Shown here piece after piece: positions 5,281-16,053 of a stretch of 56,705 nt of DNA (positions within the stretch are counted from its first letter, which is position 1; each line of letters begins with the position of its first letter). This DNA is from an uncultured Clostridia bacterium (lineage in GTDB: Bacteria; Bacillota; Clostridia; Christensenellales; Borkfalkiaceae), in assembly GCA_947245485.1 (NCBI GenBank), contig CAMXOH010000002.1:1-56705 (forward strand). The letters are read 5' to 3'. A program made the position numbers and the translations under genes. Below the pieces are notes generated by a model. It saw only the letters and a program-made list of their open reading frames with translations. It had not been told where the DNA came from and made no database searches.

Positions 5281-7290
5281 TCAATTTATCTTACCGTTCT
5301 TTATTTTGACTTTGGCTATAAGTTTAACGTCTTCGCAAGAGCTTCCGACAATTATTTCGTAAACTCCGTCGTTTACCGTCCATCCGTCGTCGGCAACCGA
5401 ATAATACGCAAACGAACGGCTGTCAAGTTTAACCGAAAGTTTCTTGCTTTCGCCGGCTTTTAACGCCGTTTTGACAAAGCCTTTCAATTCCTTTAAAGGA
5501 CGGTAAACTTTCGGCGAGCACTCCGAAACGTACACCTGCGCAATCTCTTTGCCATACGCGTCTGAAATATTTTTAACGGTAAAACTTACTTCCGCATCCA
5601 AGCCGTCGGCTTTGATTGATAAGTCCGAATAGGCAAATTCAGAATAACTTAATCCGTAGCCGAAAGGATATTTCACCGCTTCCCTGTGGCGTCCGTAGTA
5701 TCTGTATCCTACGTCCAATCCGTCCGAATAACAAGTAACCGCCGTATCCGTATAAGTACCGTTTACAGACGTACACTCAAAATTGACGGGGAAAGTTTCG
5801 GAAAGTTTTCCGCAAGGGTTTGCTTTTCCGCAGAGAATATTGCTCAAAGCGTTCGAACCGCGCTCGCCGCAAAAACCCGCGTACACAATTGCTTTTACTT
5901 TGCTCTCCCACGCGCTCACATCGATAGGCGAACCTGCGAATATTACTACGACTGTATTCGGGTTTATTCGTGCCAAATCCAATATCGCCCTCTCCTGAAC
6001 GGCAGGCAGACGCATATCGGTACGGTCCCCCGCTTCGTATTCGAAAGGCGCTCCCGTTCCCACGCAGATAATATTCATTTCGCATTCGGCGGCGTAATTT
6101 CTGCCTAAGTGCGGTTTCGCCGCCCAATGCGCATAACCGTTTGTTCCCAAAACTTTATTGTAATAATACATACTTTCAAAGGGAATCTTCACGCCGAGCT
6201 CTTTTTCAAGAAGCGTTTGCAAATCGAAATCTTTATTCAAGGGAACGACTTTCGAGCTTCCGTCTCCCGCGATCATATCTTTTTCGGGTTTTGCATAGCA
6301 ACCGAAAAGCGCAACTTTCGTTCCTTTTTTAACGGGGAGTATTCTTTCATCGTTTTTTAAAAGAACCATACTCTCTTCCGCAATTTTCTGCGCGGCGTCG
6401 AGTCTGTTTTCTACCGTTCTCTTAACTCCCTTGCCCTTTTGCATTTCCTTACAGCGTTCGGCAAGCGACAGAACGCGCGCAGCGCATTCGTCGATTTCCG
6501 CTTCGGTTATTTTGCCTTCCTCGAAATCCTTTACCAAATTATCGTAATTTTTTTGATTGAAAGGAAACTCTATATCGCAACCCGCCTTTGCCGAAACCGT
6601 TCTGTCCCTGACTGCTTCCCAGTCGGAATACATAGCTCCGTCGAAGCCGAATTCTTCCCTTAAAACTTTAAATCCTTTCTTGTTTTCGCTTGCATATCTT
6701 CCGTTTACGCGGTTATACGCAGACATCATACTGACGGGCTTTGCTTTTAAGGCAATTTCAAACGGAACGTAATAAATTTCTCTCAGCGTTCTTTCGTCAA
6801 CCTCACTCGACTGTTCGAAACGGTTATATTCGAGATTGTTACAGCAAAAATGCTTTAAGCAGGTGCCTATCCCTTGCGACTGAACGCCTTCTATATAGCT
6901 CTTTGCCATATGCCCCGCAAGATAGGGGTCTTCCGAAAAGTATTCGAAGTTTCTGCCGTTAAGCGGATGCCTTTTTATATTCACTCCCGGAGCGAGAAGA
7001 ATATCGACGTTTTTCTCATAACAGTCGTCCGCAAGACATTCGCCCATAAGTCTGGCGCAATCCGTATTCCAAGTATTTGCAAGAGACTGCGTTGAGGGAT
7101 ACGAAACCGAAGGCAGAGTAATTGTTTCGCCCTGAGCGTTTTTGCGTTCTGCGCGAACGCCTACGGGTCCGTCTGAAACCGAAACTGCGGGTATCTTACC
7201 GCCGAAGTCCATCGTGTACCAAAATCCGTTGCTACACAAAAGACGCAATTTCTCATCAATAGTCAAGTCGTTTAACGTTAATTTTCCCAT
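5281..7290 (-). CDS. Glycoside hydrolase family 3 (beta-glucosidase type)
   Basis: The 669-residue enzyme has the GH3 barrel with RNFEYFSEDP (113-122), substrate-binding KHF (146-148) and nucleophile Asp223 in YSDW. The second alpha/beta domain (GDGSS region) and a C-terminal fibronectin-III-like domain (after about 545) follow. This three-domain build matches beta-glucosidases and xylosidases rather than the short NagZ type. No signal peptide is present, so it should act on imported saccharides. It is the last gene of nagB-nagA-GH3, 10 bp after nagA, with an AAAGGA ribosome binding site. The context suggests glycosides that contain N-acetylglucosamine; this is inference. Confidence 0.9.
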   Translation of the reverse strand: MGKLTLNDLTIDEKLRLLCSNGFWYTMDFGGKIPAVSVSDGPVGVRAERKNAQGETITLPSVSYPSTQSLANTWNTDCARLMGECLADDCYEKNVDILLAPGVNIKRHPLNGRNFEYFSEDPYLAGHMAKSYIEGVQSQGIGTCLKHFCCNNLEYNRFEQSSEVDERTLREIYYVPFEIALKAKPVSMMSAYNRVNGRYASENKKGFKVLREEFGFDGAMYSDWEAVRDRTVSAKAGCDIEFPFNQKNYDNLVKDFEEGKITEAEIDECAARVLSLAERCKEMQKGKGVKRTVENRLDAAQKIAEESMVLLKNDERILPVKKGTKVALFGCYAKPEKDMIAGDGSSKVVPLNKDFDLQTLLEKELGVKIPFESMYYYNKVLGTNGYAHWAAKPHLGRNYAAECEMNIICVGTGAPFEYEAGDRTDMRLPAVQERAILDLARINPNTVVVIFAGSPIDVSAWESKVKAIVYAGFCGERGSNALSNILCGKANPCGKLSETFPVNFECTSVNGTYTDTAVTCYSDGLDVGYRYYGRHREAVKYPFGYGLSYSEFAYSDLSIKADGLDAEVSFTVKNISDAYGKEIAQVYVSECSPKVYRPLKELKGFVKTALKAGESKKLSVKLDSRSFAYYSVADDGWTVNDGVYEIIVGSSCEDVKLIAKVKIKNGKIN

Positions 7291-7300
7291 AATTTTTCCT

Positions 7301-8434
7301 TTAATTTTTGTAAACTATATTTCCGCCTACGACGGTTAACATTACGTTAAAGTTTTCGTCGAGAAGCGTGAAGTCCGCACGCGCGCCGTCTTTGATTATT
7401 CCGCATTCCTCTTCTATTCCGAGATTTAATGCGGGATTATAGGTCGCGCAATCGATAGCTTTTTCTATTCCCGAGCCGCTTTTGGTAACAAGCGTTTTTA
7501 CCGCTTCGTTCATTTTCAGCAGACTGCCCGCCAACGTTCCGTCCGCAAGCCTCGCCTGCCCGTCATTTACGTATACCGTCTGCCCGCCGAGTTCGGAAAC
7601 GGCGGCGGCAGTTCCCTTGGCGCGTATCGAATCCGTAATTAAAACAAGTTTTGTTTCGGGTTTATTCTTTAACAATAACTTTAATGCGGGAACCGATATA
7701 TGAAGCGTATCGGCGATTACTTCGCAATACAGTTCGTCGTATAACAGCGCAGAACCGGCAACGCCGACTTCCCTGTGGTGAAGCGGAGACTGTGCGTTAA
7801 AAGTATGAGTGACGCAGGATAACCCTGCTTTTATCGCCTCTTTCATATTATTTTCGGTTGCGTCGCTATGCCCCGCAGAAGCGATAACTTTATGCTTATT
7901 GAGATATGCGATTAATCCGCCGTCGTCCTCTTCGGGCGCAAGCGTTACCATTTTGATTTTATTGCCCGAAAGCGTTTGCAGTTCTTCAAAGTATTCTATA
8001 CTCGGCTTTCTGATAAATTCGGGCAGTTGCGCGCCGATATGCTTACGGGAGATAAACGGTCCTTCGAGGTGTACTCCCAATAATCGCGCGCCTTTAAACT
8101 CATTATAATTTGCTACGGCTTTCAGGGTCGTTTTTAAATTATCGTCGCTCTGAGTCATCGTAGTCGCCAAAAAAGCCGTTGTACCCTCTTTTGCAAGCGT
8201 TTCCGATATTGCCGAAAGCGCTTCCGCCGTGCCGTCCATAGTATCCGCTCCGCCCGCGCCGTGCGTATGCTCGTCTATAAACCCCGGAACCAAAAGACAG
8301 TCGCCCGTTTGCGTGATAGGTTCGATATCATTTTCGATACCCAAACCGATGATTCTGCCGTTCTCAATCCCGAAAGCGGTACTTACAATACCTTTTCCGC
8401 GTATGTAAGTTTTTACGTTTTTAAAACCTTTCAT
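7301..8434 (-). CDS. nagA: N-acetylglucosamine-6-phosphate deacetylase
   Basis: The 377-residue enzyme removes acetate from GlcNAc-6-phosphate to give glucosamine-6-phosphate. The amidohydrolase metal motif is His56-Thr-His58 in DEHTHG, Glu124 is in HLEGPF, metal ligands His189 and His210 follow, and the catalytic Asp268 is in LITDS. THTFNAQSPLHH is the expected substrate loop. The gene starts 3 bp after the nagB stop without a clear ribosome binding site, so translation is probably coupled. Its product feeds NagB directly. Confidence 0.95.
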   Translation of the reverse strand: MKGFKNVKTYIRGKGIVSTAFGIENGRIIGLGIENDIEPITQTGDCLLVPGFIDEHTHGAGGADTMDGTAEALSAISETLAKEGTTAFLATTMTQSDDNLKTTLKAVANYNEFKGARLLGVHLEGPFISRKHIGAQLPEFIRKPSIEYFEELQTLSGNKIKMVTLAPEEDDGGLIAYLNKHKVIASAGHSDATENNMKEAIKAGLSCVTHTFNAQSPLHHREVGVAGSALLYDELYCEVIADTLHISVPALKLLLKNKPETKLVLITDSIRAKGTAAAVSELGGQTVYVNDGQARLADGTLAGSLLKMNEAVKTLVTKSGSGIEKAIDCATYNPALNLGIEEECGIIKDGARADFTLLDENFNVMLTVVGGNIVYKN

Positions 8435-9252: not shown

Positions 9253-9288
9253 TAACTTTTTATACCAAAAATTAAAAGTAAACTACAT

Positions 9289-9326
9289 AAAAAAGCCGCG
9301 CCTGAAATTAAAGACGCGGCTTTTTT
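9289..9326 (-). terminator. Intrinsic terminator of the HTH accessory locus
   Basis: The stem AAGCCGCG with CGCGGCTT has a 14-nt loop and A/T runs on both sides. It lies 9 bp past the stop of the 251-aa gene; read on the minus strand it ends in a U-run. Confidence 0.85.
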
Positions 9327-9334
9327 ATATTTAA

Positions 9335-10090
9335 TTAACAATTACCGTTAACATTACGCGGCATCACATCGAATTTTTTAGGCTCATCGATTGAAAATCT
9401 GATTTCATCAGTTTCCAAAAGCAAATTATCGTTCTTGTCGTATTGTTTTACAATATACCTGTATGACCCGTATGCAAGAGCGCAAATAGCTTTATAGTAA
9501 ATATTTTCTTCAACTTTATATGTTGCAAGCATACGGGAGCCTTTATATAAAATTACTTCGGTTCTCGCATACTCGTCACAGCAAGGCTGAAAGTAAATAT
9601 TTACCAAATCGTTGCCCGTCGAATGCTCTATTTCTGCCTTTTTGAGTAAATCTTCTCTTTTCTGCCGCGCCTGCTTGGCATAATATTTTTCCCTGTCCGC
9701 TTCAATATATTTTAAATTCAATATATAGTCGTCCGCTAAACCGTTCTTAAAACTAAATTTTAACTTTTCCAACCTGTCATTAAAGCTAATATCAATTTTG
9801 AAAACTTGTCTCTTATCATATGCGGATTTAGACACTACGCTCCATTGCCCGTTTTTAAGAATATAAACTTTCTCTAACACGTTCAAAATATTTTCTTCAT
9901 CAATAATTAATTCATAATCAACTATATTTATATCTTCGTCTTGCGTTAACGTAAACGAATCGCTTTCTTGTTCGAATTTACCGTAATCGCCTTTAACATT
10001 ATTTGATAGAAATGTTTTCGGACGGCAAACAGAGAATATAAACTCTTGACTTAAATTATTTTTAAAAAGATATTCCTGATACTTATTCAT
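9335..10090 (-). CDS. Protein of unknown family, partner of the HTH/HEPN-like protein
   Basis: I do not recognise this 251-residue protein. It has no signal peptide or membrane segment. Residues 1-125 and 165-245 look beta-rich, joined by a charged helix around 130-160 (EADREKYYAKQARQKRE). Two adjacent cysteines occur in FQPCCDEY (about 168-175). It follows the HTH gene by 13 bp with a very strong ribosome binding site (AAAGGAGG), so it should be made in excess of the first gene product, as is common for an antidote or structural partner. Codon use is AT-rich compared with its neighbours, which suggests horizontal acquisition. Confidence 0.75.
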   Translation of the reverse strand: MNKYQEYLFKNNLSQEFIFSVCRPKTFLSNNVKGDYGKFEQESDSFTLTQDEDINIVDYELIIDEENILNVLEKVYILKNGQWSVVSKSAYDKRQVFKIDISFNDRLEKLKFSFKNGLADDYILNLKYIEADREKYYAKQARQKREDLLKKAEIEHSTGNDLVNIYFQPCCDEYARTEVILYKGSRMLATYKVEENIYYKAICALAYGSYRYIVKQYDKNDNLLLETDEIRFSIDEPKKFDVMPRNVNGNC

Positions 10091-10103
10091 TTTTTTTCCT
10101 CCT

Positions 10104-11924
10104 TTAATTTAAATTACAGATATAATCTATGCAATAGCGGATATCTTCAATCGTTAACGTTACATTCGTTTTTTCAGGGTGAACGATATTGTTTCTCGCC
10201 ATTCTTAACGCATTAAGCAGTCTTTGCGTTTTGCCGTCATAATTTTCGTCCTGTACATATACGGTACAGTATTGTTTCAGCATTTCGGAAAAATCACCCG
10301 AGAAGCGATAACTGTAACGCAAAACCGCCTCTAACCGTTTGCAGAGATTTACGATTACTGTTTCCGTATTTCCTTTTTCAAGTTCATCTTCAAAATATTC
10401 TTTTGTTAGGCCGCCTATAACTTTATCTTTTTGCTTTAAGTCGGAAAAATCGGATATTACCTGCTTCCTGTACTCTGATAAGTATTCTATTATCCCCTCT
10501 ACGTTGGAACTGTAATCGGATATATTTTTACCTCTCAAATCAAAAGAGTTATAGGAATTATTATTGAAAATTTTAACAAGCTCTTTTTTTATTATATTCG
10601 ATTCGGTTCTAATTACCCCGTCGGCAAGGACGGTTAATTTGTTATCTATAGCATATTCAAACAAGTTTTTCCATTCCTTATCATTAAACATTTTATAAGG
10701 TATTTCTACGGGATGAATATTATAATTATAACTTCCCAAAACCGTTTTTATTAACGTTAAATCTTTCGTTGCCGTTAACTCTTTAATGTTTACAATACCT
10801 TCATGGATACACGATTGAATTGTAAATTCTTCTTTTGAAATATCGGGATTTGTCTTTAATTTAGCCATCCTTATTTCATATTCCGAAGCAATATACGGAT
10901 TAAATCCACAGTATTTAACTATTTCGGTATTAATTTCATTGAACTTTTCAAAGGTTTCAAAATCGCCTCTTTCCAGCGCAAGTTTAACCGTTTCTTCCAA
11001 TATTCTGACTAAGCCATGTCCTCTTCTGCGGTTTCTATCAAATATATCGCCCATAAAGAAAAAGTTTAATGAATAGTAATTCGTGTTCAGGTTTTTATAC
11101 GCATAATCGTTATTTTTGTTGGCTTGCGCCAACAGTCTTTTAAGCATATTCGTCTTATTATGCAAATAGCTTTGATGAATCAAATAAGGGTAAACATTAT
11201 ACCACACGCATTTCCTTTCGTTTTGTTCGCCCAACAAAACAGAAAGAGTTTTTTGGTTTATTCTATCGTCACAGACAATCATTTCAAAAAATTCATCGGT
11301 TAATATGCAAGGACCATTTAAAATTTTTATTTCTTTTTTAGGCAATAAATCCAAAATACTATTCTCGTTTTCAAAATAGTGTTCACGAAAATAACGATGC
11401 TTAACAACGTATTGCATACCAAGTTTAAGAGTAACTCCGCGAAGCAAATCAAGACGATTAGACAAAATAGCAAACTTTAATGCGTCCAAAATATTTAAGT
11501 GAGTTATAATATCCTTATTTTTATCACACAAAACGGCAAACACATTATAACTTCCATATTGTAATATATAATCAATAATAGTTTTGCCGTTTTCGTCTTT
11601 GAATCGACAGTTTATCCCGTCAAGTAATGTAACGTCGTCATTTTTAGCGCAAAGTTCGATTTTAGAAATATTCACTATTTCCGGCTCGGTTCTTTTACCT
11701 GTCAAAATATAATCTATCGTTACGCCGAACAATTCTGCAAGCGCAGGAAAAAATTCGATACTCGGCGAGCCGCTGTCTTTTTCCCATTTACTGATTGCTT
11801 TATCGCTTACTTGCAATTTAGCGGCAAGTTCGGCTTGCTTCCAACCTTTTTCTTTGCGAAGTTCTGCAATGGTTTTTCCTATACTGTGTTTACTGTGTTG
11901 CTCCGGTATAATCGATGAACCCAT
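10104..11924 (-). CDS. XRE-family HTH protein with ankyrin-like middle and HEPN-like C-terminal domain
   Basis: The protein is 606 residues from the ATG at 11924. A longer TTG start at 11954 is rejected because a -10 box (TATAAT, 11954-11959) sits on it and AGGAG precedes the ATG. An XRE HTH is at about 14-70 (SIGKTIAELRKEKGWKQAEL, DKAISKWE). A long helical middle contains ankyrin-like stretches such as DALKFAILSNRLDLLR. The last ~100 residues resemble HEPN folds, with R-x4-H in ARNNIVHPE followed by a conserved helix. HEPN domains with this motif are often RNases in toxin-antitoxin and defence systems. A DNA-binding RNase or a self-regulated defence sensor is plausible, but no function is established. 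It is AT-rich and co-transcribed with the 251-aa gene. Confidence 0.75.
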   Translation of the reverse strand: MGSSIIPEQHSKHSIGKTIAELRKEKGWKQAELAAKLQVSDKAISKWEKDSGSPSIEFFPALAELFGVTIDYILTGKRTEPEIVNISKIELCAKNDDVTLLDGINCRFKDENGKTIIDYILQYGSYNVFAVLCDKNKDIITHLNILDALKFAILSNRLDLLRGVTLKLGMQYVVKHRYFREHYFENENSILDLLPKKEIKILNGPCILTDEFFEMIVCDDRINQKTLSVLLGEQNERKCVWYNVYPYLIHQSYLHNKTNMLKRLLAQANKNNDYAYKNLNTNYYSLNFFFMGDIFDRNRRRGHGLVRILEETVKLALERGDFETFEKFNEINTEIVKYCGFNPYIASEYEIRMAKLKTNPDISKEEFTIQSCIHEGIVNIKELTATKDLTLIKTVLGSYNYNIHPVEIPYKMFNDKEWKNLFEYAIDNKLTVLADGVIRTESNIIKKELVKIFNNNSYNSFDLRGKNISDYSSNVEGIIEYLSEYRKQVISDFSDLKQKDKVIGGLTKEYFEDELEKGNTETVIVNLCKRLEAVLRYSYRFSGDFSEMLKQYCTVYVQDENYDGKTQRLLNALRMARNNIVHPEKTNVTLTIEDIRYCIDYICNLN

Positions 11925-11953
11925 AAAAAGTATTTCTCCTGAAATTTTTCTCA

Positions 11954-11982
11954 ATTATAACATTTAAATCACGAAAAGTAAA
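11954..11982 (-). promoter_or_regulatory. Promoter of the HTH accessory operon
   Basis: On the minus strand, TTTACT (11977-11982) and TATAAT (11954-11959) are 17 bp apart, placing transcription start near 11947 and supporting the ATG at 11924. A CTACGTA element lies just upstream (11984-11990). Confidence 0.7.
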
Positions 11983-12026
11983 CCTACGTATTTTCTACAC
12001 TAACTATAAAATTTTCAATTTATTTT

Positions 12027-12059
12027 AAAAAGAACTCTACGTAACGTAGAGTTCTTTTT
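12027..12059. terminator. Perfect palindrome, terminator of degV and possible operator
   Basis: A 15-bp perfect stem (AAAAAGAACTCTACG with its complement, loop TAA) lies between the degV 3' end and the HTH promoter. Flanking A/T runs fit an intrinsic terminator. Its core CTACGTAACGTAG repeats the CTACGTA found at 11984-11990, so it could also bind a regulator. Confidence 0.75.
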
Positions 12060-12153
12060 ATTAAGCATTGCAGTCAAAGCGCCGCAAAAAAAGCGCAAAC
12101 AGTGCATTTTACCGCAAACTACAAGGTAATAAAACCTTTTTTCCTTGATATTA

Positions 12154-13185: not shown

Positions 13186-13358
13186 TGAAATAAACGAAGT
13201 AAAACATTAAATGCTTATAAAAATTTAGTGAGTTGTAACCATATTACCTATTAGTAAAAAATTATTTCAAGAATTTACATAAACACTTTATAAACTTCCG
13301 GTAAAGCGTCGCTGCGCTCGCGCGAACCGCGCGGTTTCTCGCAACCGCTAGATTGCAC

Positions 13359-13395
13359 AAAATAAAAGCAGTAGCATTGCTACTGCCTTTATTTT
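13359..13395 (-). terminator. Terminator of the tRNA-Glu gene
   Basis: The stem GCAGTAGC with GCTACTGC (loop ATT) is flanked by A-rich and T-rich runs that extend the helix. On the minus strand it directly follows the tRNA CCA end. Confidence 0.8.
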
Positions 13396-13469
13396 GGTGA
13401 CCCTGTCGGGAATCGAACCCGAGATTGAGCCTTGAGAGGGCTCCGTCTTAACCGCTTGACCACAGGGCC
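13395..13469 (-). tRNA. tRNA-Glu (anticodon CUC)
   Basis: A 75-nt cloverleaf reads from GGCCCTG to an encoded CCA. The acceptor stem GGCCCUG pairs with CAGGGUC, including one G-U. D-stem GUC/GAC, anticodon stem GAGCC/GGCUC and T-stem UCGGG/CCCGA are all present. Anticodon loop CUCUCAA gives anticodon CUC, reading GAG. A promoter lies upstream (TTGCCA 13515-13520, TATAAT 13491-13496, 18-bp spacer) and a terminator follows immediately. Confidence 0.93.
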
Positions 13470-13490
13470 TTATTCATTTTTTGCTTTGTG

Positions 13491-13520
13491 ATTATAACAT
13501 AACCCGCTATCGTTTGGCAA
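13491..13520 (-). promoter_or_regulatory. tRNA-Glu promoter
   Basis: On the minus strand TTGCCA and TATAAT are separated by 18 bp and lie about 22 nt before the tRNA 5' end. Confidence 0.6.
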
Positions 13521-13582
13521 GCAAATTTGCAAAGCAAAATAAATAAAAATATATTTACTTTTATAATACAATAAACGTTGTT

Positions 13583-13705
13583 CGTCGTTTTTATAAGCAA
13601 ACAGAACAATGCGAACGAGCGTTTTTGAAAGGCGCGTACACTGACGTACGTAACCCGAGAAAAGCGCAGTTCAACGCAGTTATGCGACGCTTAGAAAAAA
13701 CGACG
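13583..13705. repeat. Dispersed ~124-bp imperfect palindromic repeat, copy 1
   Basis: The element begins CGTCGTTTTT and ends AAAAACGACG (terminal inverted repeats). Its core contains GACGTACGTAACCCGAGAAA and is almost identical to copies at 23570-23694 and 35457-35580. The two halves can fold on each other with the GTAC..GTAC centre as loop. It lies between the pgi terminator and the tRNA-Glu promoter. No open reading frame is shared, so it resembles a MITE or a structured intergenic repeat. Confidence 0.85.
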
Positions 13706-13720
13706 TTGTTATCATATTTT

Positions 13721-13753
13721 AATAAAGTCCGCCGTTAAACGGCGGACTTTATA
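13721..13753 (-). terminator. pgi terminator
   Basis: The perfect stem ATAAAGTCCGCCG with its complement (loop TTAAA) lies 10 bp after the pgi stop; the minus-strand reading ends in A/U-rich sequence. Confidence 0.85.
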
Positions 13754-13762
13754 TTAAACAAT

Positions 13763-15187
13763 TTAAACTATATATTTATTTTCAAGCGCTGGCGCCGAGT
13801 CCATTTCTGCTTTCTGCGCTTCGTAACCGCGCTTGCCCAAAAGCGCAAACGTCGCCTTTTTACCGTCTTCAACCCCCGGTTGGTTAAACGTGTTAATGTT
13901 AAGCAACGCGCCCGTATATGCAGTCTGCAATTCAAGAAGATACATTAACTGTCCGAGCGTAAATTCATTTACTACGGGCATATTGATTGTATAATTCATT
14001 CTGCCTGCGCGCATTAAAGCGTAAGCCGTTGCTTTGTTTTCAGCCTGTATAAGCTCCTGCATGGTGTGTCCGCCGAGGAAGCCGACGTCGGGAATATCTT
14101 CGCATCCATGCGCAATCGGCATTTCGCAGGCATACTTTCCTACCGAGATAAACGTGATTACTTTGTCGTAAGGTCCCTCTATATAGAGCTGCACCTGCGA
14201 ATGCTGGTCCGTTACGCCGAGACTCTTTACAGGAGTAGTTCCCGCATTAATAATTTTTCCGTCATAGGTTTCAGCTTTACCGAGCGACTCCGCCCAAAGC
14301 TGGCAATACCAGTCCGCCATCAATTTGAGATTATCCGAATAAGGCATTAATACGTTTATGTTCTTGCCCTGCTTCATCGTTACATATTGAAGTACGGCGC
14401 AGGCAAGCGCGGGATTGTTTTCGATTTTAGCCGAAGAACAGAGTTCATCCATATAAGCCGCGCCTTTGAGCATAGCTTTTATATCGATACCGAGCACCGC
14501 CGCAGGAAGAAGTCCTACGGGACACATTTCGGAGAACCTGCCGCCGACGCCGTCGGGAAGCACGTACTTCTTGAAAGCTCCGCCGTAACTATTATCTATT
14601 TTGATTAAATTACCGCGGCTTGCGTCCGTAGTGAAAATCATATTATCGGGAAGATTAACTCCCTTCTTTTTAAGAATATCCGCAATAATGAGATATTGCG
14701 TCATAGTTTCGCTCGTCGCGCCGGATTTGGAAATAACGTTAAAGCATGTCTTTTCGGGTTCTATTACGTCTAAAAGCGCCTGCATACGCACTGGGTCCAC
14801 GTTGTCTTCAACGTAGAACTTAGGTCCTCCGCGCTTTTCGTCAGACAATTCGTTGTAGTGCAGATGTTTAAGCGCATTGAACGCCATTATAGGTCCGAGA
14901 GCGCTTCCGCCTATACCCAAAACCACAAAGTATTTAAACTTTGCGCGCACTTCCGCCGCTGTCTTTAAAATGTCTTCGACTATCTCGTCCTGATTATAGG
15001 GAAGTTCCGTCCAACCCATAAAAAGTTCGTCTTTGCCGCGGTTTGCCTTTACGTATTCATACGCTTCTTCCGCCTGCTTTGCATGCGCTTTAAGTTCGCT
15101 GTCTTTTATTCCCTTTGCGCCGAGAGATTTCTCCATCATATAGTTAAAATCTACCGTGACGCGCTGACTTTCGTTATAATTAGCCAT
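13763..15187 (-). CDS. pgi: Glucose-6-phosphate isomerase
   Basis: The 474-residue cytoplasmic enzyme interconverts glucose-6-phosphate and fructose-6-phosphate. Motifs are GIGGSALGP, SKSGATSET (phosphate binding), GGRFSEMCPVG with the catalytic Glu, and DQHSQVQLYIEGP (PGI signature region). The length fits the shorter Gram-positive/archaeal-like Pgi rather than the 550-aa E. coli type. The ribosome binding site is GGAGGG. The promoter is TTGACT (15241-15246) and TATAAT (15218-15223), 17 bp apart. It links the amino-sugar operon to glycolysis. Confidence 0.95.
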   Translation of the reverse strand: MANYNESQRVTVDFNYMMEKSLGAKGIKDSELKAHAKQAEEAYEYVKANRGKDELFMGWTELPYNQDEIVEDILKTAAEVRAKFKYFVVLGIGGSALGPIMAFNALKHLHYNELSDEKRGGPKFYVEDNVDPVRMQALLDVIEPEKTCFNVISKSGATSETMTQYLIIADILKKKGVNLPDNMIFTTDASRGNLIKIDNSYGGAFKKYVLPDGVGGRFSEMCPVGLLPAAVLGIDIKAMLKGAAYMDELCSSAKIENNPALACAVLQYVTMKQGKNINVLMPYSDNLKLMADWYCQLWAESLGKAETYDGKIINAGTTPVKSLGVTDQHSQVQLYIEGPYDKVITFISVGKYACEMPIAHGCEDIPDVGFLGGHTMQELIQAENKATAYALMRAGRMNYTINMPVVNEFTLGQLMYLLELQTAYTGALLNINTFNQPGVEDGKKATFALLGKRGYEAQKAEMDSAPALENKYIV

Positions 15188-15217
15188 TGCTCCCTCCGAA
15201 AATAATTTCTACCTATT

Positions 15218-15246
15218 ATTATACTATATTTTTTTAATAGAGTCAA
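15218..15246 (-). promoter_or_regulatory. pgi promoter
   Basis: On the minus strand TTGACT and TATAAT are separated by 17 bp, about 31 nt before the start codon. Confidence 0.7.
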
Positions 15247-15285
15247 TAGCGGACTTTTGAAATTTTAAGAAAAGAGCCTTATAAT

Positions 15286-16053
15286 TTACGCCGTCTGCAT
15301 AATCAGTTTTGCAAGTGCGGTTGCGTTTTTACTGCCGATTATTACCGCTCCCATATCCACCGCCGTGTTCACGTCCGACAAAGTGACGGCTCCGTCCGCC
15401 TTTATGGTGCATTTATCCTTAACCGCGGCTTTAACGCGCGATATTGTTTCTGCAATATCGAACGAAATTCCGTTCAAACCGTCCGCCGAATAACTTTCCG
15501 TAGATACGCGTATGGACGGTATGCCGCAATCGGCGGCAAGACTGCAAAGGCGTGTTATTTCATGCTCGTTCAAAAGCGGACTCTGAATGTTTATTCGCAG
15601 CGAATGGTTTTTACAAGCCGATTTAAGTTTTTTAAATTCGCGCTTAATATAATTCCAGTTGCCGTCCTTAACGTATGAAACGGGCGCGGTAACTTCCGCC
15701 TCGTCCGCGCCGTCGCGGAACGCATGTTTTACGGCGTCTATTTTCGTCTTGAAAGTGTCACCGCCGTGCGGGTAAGAGATACAGGCAATAAGCGAAACGC
15801 GCGGATTGGAACCCAAATAATTTACGCAAGGTTTGATTTGATTTGGAAGAACGCAAATCGCACCGAGTTTCAGCGATGTTGCGTCCTGACACGCTTTGCG
15901 CAAAGTAACCTTATCGATTGTCGTATCGGTAAGATTGTATTCGAGTTTTCCTATCTGCGCCTGCGCCGCTTGAAGATTCATTCTGCGCTTAAATTCGGTA
16001 AACTCTTCGCGTTCCTCTTCTGTGAAATCGGAAATTTCCGTGTAATCGGGCAT
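15286..16053 (-). CDS. DeoC/aldolase-family protein lacking the Schiff-base lysine
   Basis: The protein is 255 residues from the ATG at 16053, which has an AAGGT ribosome binding site; a longer start at 16125 has none and overlaps a -10 box. The barrel aligns with deoxyribose-5-phosphate aldolase: LTDTTID, GADEAEV, and IRVSTESY in place of IKTSTG. The Schiff-base Lys (E. coli Lys167) is therefore Arg, and the active-site Asp102 equivalent is Glu. The second Lys (Lys201 equivalent) is kept in CTIKADGA. A normal aldolase reaction is unlikely; a changed or non-catalytic role is inferred. No other deoxynucleoside genes are nearby. The extended N-terminus is charged. Confidence 0.8.
   Translation of the reverse strand: MPDYTEISDFTEEEREEFTEFKRRMNLQAAQAQIGKLEYNLTDTTIDKVTLRKACQDATSLKLGAICVLPNQIKPCVNYLGSNPRVSLIACISYPHGGDTFKTKIDAVKHAFRDGADEAEVTAPVSYVKDGNWNYIKREFKKLKSACKNHSLRINIQSPLLNEHEITRLCSLAADCGIPSIRVSTESYSADGLNGISFDIAETISRVKAAVKDKCTIKADGAVTLSDVNTAVDMGAVIIGSKNATALAKLIMQTA

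Follow-up and report, generated by a model that had tools for sequence, protein, structure and literature searches.

The window analysed here is a stretch of 56,705 nucleotides of DNA from an uncultured Clostridia bacterium (NCBI GenBank assembly GCA_947245485.1, contig CAMXOH010000002.1, positions 1 to 56,705 of the forward strand). It carries two adjoining genes on the minus strand, here called A (606 amino acids, 10104-11924) and B (251 amino acids, 9335-10090), whose products and signals are the subject of this work. In an initial annotation of the DNA the pair had been read as a candidate toxin-antitoxin or defence system. The following features were assigned, with the basis of the assignment in brackets:

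10104..11924, minus strand: gene A, encoding an XRE-type helix-turn-helix (HTH), a helical-repeat middle and a HEPN-like end (open reading frame, Pfam, AlphaFold)
11694..11888, minus strand: HTH of A, residues 13-77
10425..11639, minus strand: variable middle of A, residues 96-500, apparently exchanged as cassettes, its start weakly ankyrin-like (pairwise identity, DNA cassettes, weak Ank_2 match)
10107..10424, minus strand: HEPN-like domain of A, residues 501-606 (RiboL-PSP-HEPN matches, model helices)
10179..10196, minus strand: RNNIVH motif, R577-H582, the predicted RNase site (R-N-x3-H conservation)
9335..10090, minus strand: gene B, 251 amino acids, without a known family (open reading frame, AlphaFold)
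9380..9652, minus strand: Fn3-like sandwich predicted for residues 147-237 of B, towards its C-terminus
11978..11987, minus strand: operator-like site O2, GTAGGTTTAC, overlapping the -35 box (upstream conservation)
11954..11982, minus strand: promoter TTTACT-17-TATAAT with TG
12036..12050, minus strand: operator-like palindrome O1, TCTACGTTACGTAGA (upstream conservation)
9285..9330, minus strand: terminator-like hairpin 3' of B (19 pairs, T tail)

Gene A starts with the ATG at 11924; the listed open reading frame (ORF) opens upstream of it, at the TTG at 11954. Only 13 nt separate the stop codon of A from the start of B, and the corresponding gaps range from -8 to 34 nt across 21 loci. The ribosome binding site of B, AAAGGAGGA, is stronger than the CAGGAGA of A, in line with the initial annotation. 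Among the promoter-like sites of the minus strand, the best (11982-11954) matches in 10/12 positions and has a TG before the -10 box. Terminator-like sites exceeded the number in shuffled sequences (6 found versus a mean of 1.8, sd 1.4), but promoter-like sites overall did not (15 found versus a mean of 12.3, sd 3.0). The GC content is 0.336 for A and 0.328 for B versus 0.446 elsewhere in the window, and the flanking genes, which encode DegV and glucosamine-6-phosphate isomerase, are housekeeping genes, so the early description of an AT-rich two-gene operon with its own promoter and terminator amid housekeeping genes holds. In 22/22 loci A had a lower GC content than the remainder of the locus, as expected for acquired DNA. 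The host genome (draft, 1.87 Mb, 173 contigs) contains one full-length copy of A; 15 further matches in this genome covered the HTH end only.

The two ends of A resemble known domains. HTH_3 was identified with certainty (Pfam, E 9e-16) and is present in 21/21 A proteins; its closest solved relatives are the HTHs of ImmR of ICEBs1 (E 2.1e-10) and also of P22 c2. At the other end, the profile RiboL-PSP-HEPN matched the A protein of the window with E 0.006 when the whole protein was searched and with E 3.1e-5 for the domain alone, and E ≤ 0.01 was reached by 19 of 24 domain sequences, the 24 including those of the loci L051 and L052, whose proteins are not A proteins. The R-N-x3-H motif was intact in 24/24 A proteins. 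According to the part of PMC3710099 considered here, HEPN RNases have an Rx4-6H motif with a polar residue after the arginine, located at the end of helix 3, and an acidic residue in helix 2, typically in an Ex3[KR] pattern, is common but not universal. In the AlphaFold model of A (mean pLDDT 83.7, pTM 0.63) the HEPN end is predicted to form helices at residues 508-516, 520-538, 545-557, 564-581 and 592-603; the motif lies at the end of helix 564-581, the third helix, and the acidic residue E532 lies within helix 520-538. An Ex3[KR]-type pattern was found by script in 21/24 sequences; of the remaining three, L084 has an ExxxK recognised by eye, and in L065 and L073 the E is replaced by D. The order of the helices and the place of the motif match HEPN. 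Therefore, a HEPN domain with an intact predicted active site is very probably present at the C-terminus of A, and the proposal that an XRE HTH and a HEPN-like end with R-x4-H share one chain is supported. Structure prediction, named in the initial annotation as a possible refutation, did not count against it, the model showing helices with the motif where a HEPN domain would have it, although the fold search recovered only the HTH.

The region between the two ends is the most variable part of the protein. Over 210 pairs of A proteins the median pairwise identity was 0.68 for the HTH, 0.15 for residues 96-345, 0.22 for residues 346-500 and 0.48 for the HEPN part. The 21 proteins compared do not comprise L083, in which HTH and HEPN are in two ORFs, L064/L045 and L046, which are cut by contig ends, and L047, which is cut. 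The middle had been described as repeat-like and perhaps related to ankyrin: the repeat-like character is supported, with helices predicted in the model, but only weak ankyrin matches were found (Ank_2, E 0.012 in the window protein; E ≤ 0.05 in 4/21 A proteins, best 8.2e-5). Close pairs of A genes change abruptly at the DNA level. In L059 and L070 the identity is 0.91-0.99 from 241 nt before A through nt ~258 of A, falls to 0.26-0.54 at nt 259-1058 and returns to 0.82-0.97 at nt 1059-1658; after a second dip to 0.47-0.77 near the HEPN loop it is 0.82-0.99 through most of B and a third gene, and B is 93% and the third gene 89% identical. L054 and L055 are 0.88-1.0 identical except for nt 1149-1548 of A (0.42-0.53) and the first part of B (0.53-0.72). 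L062 and L067 have protein-identical HTHs with identities of 0.24 in the middle and 0.51 in the HEPN part, and for L058 and L061 the identities are 0.91 in the HTH, 0.14 in the middle, 0.94 in the HEPN part and 0.49 in B. These abrupt shifts suggest segment recombination, which would fit a diversifying sensor, and on this sequence pattern the middle of A somewhat more probably than otherwise acts as the sensor. Near-identical natural variants that differ mainly in the middle, such as L059 and L070, could reveal the sensing segment and thereby the trigger.

The 150 nt upstream of A are conserved, the flanks of the loci are not. Within 250 nt upstream of A the pattern of O2, GTAGGT[TG]TAC, was found in 20/22 A genes, 45-56 nt before the start, and the pattern of O1, TCTACn5GTAGA, was found exactly in 16/22 and in relaxed form in 20/22 upstream regions; in L084 both sites are farther upstream and L073 has neither. 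A first promoter, TTGAC...TATAAT, is located just before O1 in 14/22 relatives and is missing in the window. Among 275 ORFs of the loci, O2 was found within 250 nt upstream of 16, all of which are A genes, with the rows L065 and L082 being one place. The pair O1-O2 was present at 13 places in 12/201 genomes of the family and at 10 places in 10/396 genomes of the order; the reversed pattern gave 0 in either set. There are 20 distinct O1-O2 places; downstream of 18 lies a gene with this HTH, in one case at a distance of 396 nt, and 4 of these 18 lack HEPN. A with HEPN follows the HTH in 11; L124-L126 form a second clade of HTH-repeat-HEPN proteins without a B match (HEPN profile, E 1e-11 to 8.5e-11), and L127 encodes an A-like protein without a HEPN match. 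In IMG/VR, four contigs carry the pair, and in one of them (L116) it precedes an XRE gene. No ORF was listed at L113, which was scored as preceding none. A search for a wider regulon in the own genome gave two matches to O2 with one mismatch, one besides that at A, and the reversed control also gave two. Since the sites follow the HTH irrespective of whether HEPN is present, as autoregulation predicts, A is likely to autoregulate via O1 and O2, and the self-regulation proposed in the initial annotation gains support from comparative conservation. In the open-access literature, GTAGGTTTAC was found only in papers with titles unrelated to such a regulator.

Some further observations concern these sites. 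O1 of the window is part of a longer palindromic hairpin with T's after it, which may also serve as the terminator of DegV. Twin operators also precede genes for an XRE HTH fused to a PfkB-type sugar kinase in L108 and L109 (genomes G048 and G070; PfkB E 2.9e-32 in L109, recognised by eye in L108), possibly an autoregulated sugar-sensing regulator. In L101/L129 (G082) they precede an XRE HTH with a weak SRA match (E 0.0028 in L101, below the cut-off), near which genes resembling a DNA methyltransferase and a Vsr-type nuclease, as in a restriction-modification locus, were seen by eye, the only such case noted. The XRE HTH of L116, on a contig from the viral collection, is followed by an FtsK-type ATPase, again by eye.

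The second protein, B, gave no match at E ≤ 1 in Pfam, NCBIfam and PADLOC, as anticipated for a partner of no known family. PHROGs returned three matches only (E 0.05-0.13) and the PDB sequences none (best E 0.81); thus B represents a protein family that no library used in this analysis names. In its AlphaFold model (mean pLDDT 83.7, pTM 0.61) the C-terminal half is predicted to be Fn3-like; a comparison with viral models listed many phage tail and Fn3 proteins, at whole-chain TM values of ~ 0.2-0.3 that are uninformative. A lies directly upstream of B at 22 of 26 distinct B places (the window, L053-L073, L081 and L083-L085, with A cut by a contig end in L064 and in two ORFs in L083; L039-L045 and L082 duplicate loci in this count and were left out). 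The two genes thus co-occur in other genomes, where a lack of co-occurrence would have spoken against the initial annotation, and their tight coupling is borne out. The other four places are L071, which opens within B where the contig ends, L060 and L072, which hold fragments, and L085, a weak match that lacks an A ORF.

A small HEPN-like third protein, which was tallied in some of the loci, follows B in L056, L059, L060 (where B is a fragment), L065, L067 and L070, and follows A directly, without B, in L047 and L124. R-x4-H was found in 6/7 third proteins examined; L056 has R-x6-H by eye, and by eye so does L124. The third proteins of L056 and L124 are 45% identical over 154 amino acids (E 1e-48). 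A relationship of the third protein to the HEPN part of A was considered and rejected as not shown (hhalign probability 14.8, 25 columns at the motif).

The distribution of the genes is patchy. The region of A after the HTH matched in 14/201 genomes of the family; these matches include fragments and HEPN ends that belong to other proteins. B matched in 8/201, all among these 14. With the B profile, 8/396 genomes of the order (two short and weak) and 1/391 genomes of a draw from the class, the own genome of the window, were found. A scan for conserved peptides in 84,980 species genomes returned 20 loci, 19 of them in metagenome-assembled genomes (MAGs) of Clostridia/Clostridiales; the 20th, L072, is from an Acholeplasmataceae MAG and contains fragments. 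An IMG/VR contig (L073) carries an A-B pair beside two serine recombinases; recombinases are also located near L070, L047 and L127, and Resolvase was found in 4/106 neighbour proteins. IMG/VR searches with the single sequences of B or the post-HTH region of A gave no relatives, and the one found, L073, came from the B profile; searches for B in plasmid and phage records and for the HEPN part in plasmids gave no match. A nagB-like match was found in 7/41 genomes of the genus, two of them weak. Among the four relatives fetched there was no clean empty site: none of A, B and DegV was close to nagB, and the surroundings differed.

An invariant HEPN site, an HTH on the same chain, an exchangeable middle, sites that track the HTH and a patchy, AT-rich spread together fit a self-repressing RNase switch best. 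We therefore favour, at about even confidence and from this comparative analysis, the reading that A is a single-chain, self-regulated HEPN RNase switch with an exchangeable sensor and B an accessory partner, in the manner of abortive infection or of a fused toxin-antitoxin system. The XRE domain would bind O1 and O2 at the A promoter and keep the operon low, as the conservation of the sites suggests; with its conserved twin operators the operon illustrates a way of keeping a toxic chain safe. The helical middle would sense something variable, most likely a product of a phage or mobile element, upon which the C-terminal HEPN domain would cut RNA and halt growth as in abortive infection. B could be the cognate helper of A and either restrain it or relay the signal; that it inhibits or holds A is a fair guess, though we would not call it probable. 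Some loci add or substitute the small HEPN-like third protein, perhaps as a further effector. HEPN RNases recur as weapons of bacterial immunity, how they are switched on is often obscure, and such HEPN proteins most commonly serve in phage defence; for A, we regard a role in phage defence as evenly balanced. More tentatively, the sequences may represent an unnamed family of innate-immune receptors of gut Clostridia, in which A has constant ends and an exchangeable cassette at about residues 96-500 and B joins a constant Fn3-like end to an N-terminal part that can be exchanged; strains would recombine the cassettes, the twin operators would repress until a trigger arrives, and the third HEPN-like effector would be optional.

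Several results weigh against this reading. The HEPN part of A itself scored 24.4 bits as a domain alone, below the Pfam cut-off of 28.4, its profile matches in the PDB were weak (best E 0.026), and the fold search with the model of whole A returned HTHs only, none of its matches extending to the HEPN part. Some A-type genes (L047, L049, L124-L126) have no B, which is therefore not required by every A. Known defence genes were not enriched near the loci: at E ≤ 1e-10, 22 PADLOC families were found in 106 neighbours, one family in two proteins and the others in one each, and several of the matches are generic enzymes such as the ABC ATPase of the window that matched mad3. The 106 neighbours had been chosen by eye from 151 ORFs, with doubtful and some long ones left out. 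A location in a defence island, which the initial annotation had proposed to check, was thus not supported.

The genes could instead form a toxin-antitoxin module without a role in defence, in which A is an autoregulated HEPN toxin, or one fused to its own repressor, B is the antitoxin and the middle varies by a chase between the two. Two coupled genes with short gaps, the autoregulatory sites and the HEPN motif would all agree with this, and the N-terminal part of B tracked the HEPN part best (partial Mantel r 0.43, p 0.0075 among eight tests, 20 loci). This covariation between parts of A and B was discarded as weak: it is lost after correction for multiple tests and contradicted by L058 and L061, which share the HEPN part (0.94) but not B (0.49), results that also count against the favoured reading. 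Moreover, B follows A and does not precede it, A occurs without B, and the most variable part is the middle of A, not the HEPN part or the C-terminal part of B; we consider such a module unlikely. The nearest solved HTHs, ImmR of ICEBs1 and P22 c2, the HTH-PfkB protein with the same HTH and operators, and the serine recombinases near L070, L047, L073 and L127 would suit a regulator of a mobile element or of metabolism, that is, an XRE repressor with an ImmR/RRNPP-like helical sensor whose HEPN end serves for dimerisation only. A mere dimer contact does not require an RNx3H motif that is unvarying in 24/24 proteins, no wider O2 regulon is apparent in the own genome and no element-borne genes lie beside the window copy, which makes this regulator improbable. 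The rarity, the patchy occurrence and the fragments L060 and L072 could also point to a decayed or neutral AT-rich passenger spread on mobile DNA, but the ORFs are long and intact, the catalytic and HTH residues do not vary and the operators are conserved across families, which renders this very improbable.

With the HEPN superfamily (RiboL-PSP-HEPN, PF18735; DUF4145, PF13643) A shares R-N-x3-H, the acidic residue in helix 2 and the position of the motif where helix 3 ends; it differs in that its HEPN domain comes after an XRE HTH and a long, variable, helical middle. In PMC3710099, DUF4145 is described as fused to a sigma-type HTH and as being in operon with TerD, and the architecture of A or B does not appear in the part of that paper considered; no description of a HEPN protein with an HTH/XRE/ankyrin architecture like that of A was found in searches of the open-access literature. 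In ApeA, too, a C-terminal HEPN comes after a large unknown domain, and A matched the profile of Ec4ApeA (9hxm) weakly, with E 0.16; the N-terminal domain of ApeA consists mostly of beta strands (PMC3710099, same part), whereas A has an HTH, a predicted helical N-terminal part, operator-like sites and a partner. MNT-HEPN toxin-antitoxins likewise are two-gene units with a HEPN protein, but B matches no nucleotidyltransferase and lies downstream, and the HEPN protein itself carries the DNA-binding domain. Type II toxin-antitoxins have a DNA-binding antitoxin and a toxin on separate chains, the antitoxin usually first; such a classic layout does not fit here, since HTH and HEPN share one chain and B comes second. 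CapRel is a fused single-chain toxin-antitoxin immune sensor in which toxin and control share one chain with a variable sensing part. A resembles it in the single chain and the variable, putatively sensing part and differs in the enzyme fold and in the operator-like sites at its promoter. Receptors of the RRNPP family (PlcR, PrgX, ComR), listed by Foldseek/VIA, have an XRE HTH followed by helical repeats, as A does, but the alignments beyond the HTH are poor (rmsd 10-19) and A adds HEPN. Against PADLOC-DB 2.0.0, 16 of 18 models matched the HTH end of A only; Csm2 (0.0065) and SduA (0.046) were weak.

Three loci gave observations beyond the operon. In L059, a Cas9-like ORF (13223-15493) was recognised by eye ~ 5.7 kb from the operon of A, B and the third gene and is cut by the end of the stretch. 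In L051 (G035), the ORF at 6495-8048 joins an AAA ATPase of the CbbX/SpoVK type to a HEPN-like end that matches DUF4145 at the cut-off (23.1 bits); it belongs to a run of same-strand genes resembling, by eye, a TerD-type stress cluster. The 742-amino-acid protein of L052 (G016, 5503-7731), with no Pfam match at E ≤ 1, carries the same HEPN-like end with the motif RNGLQH.

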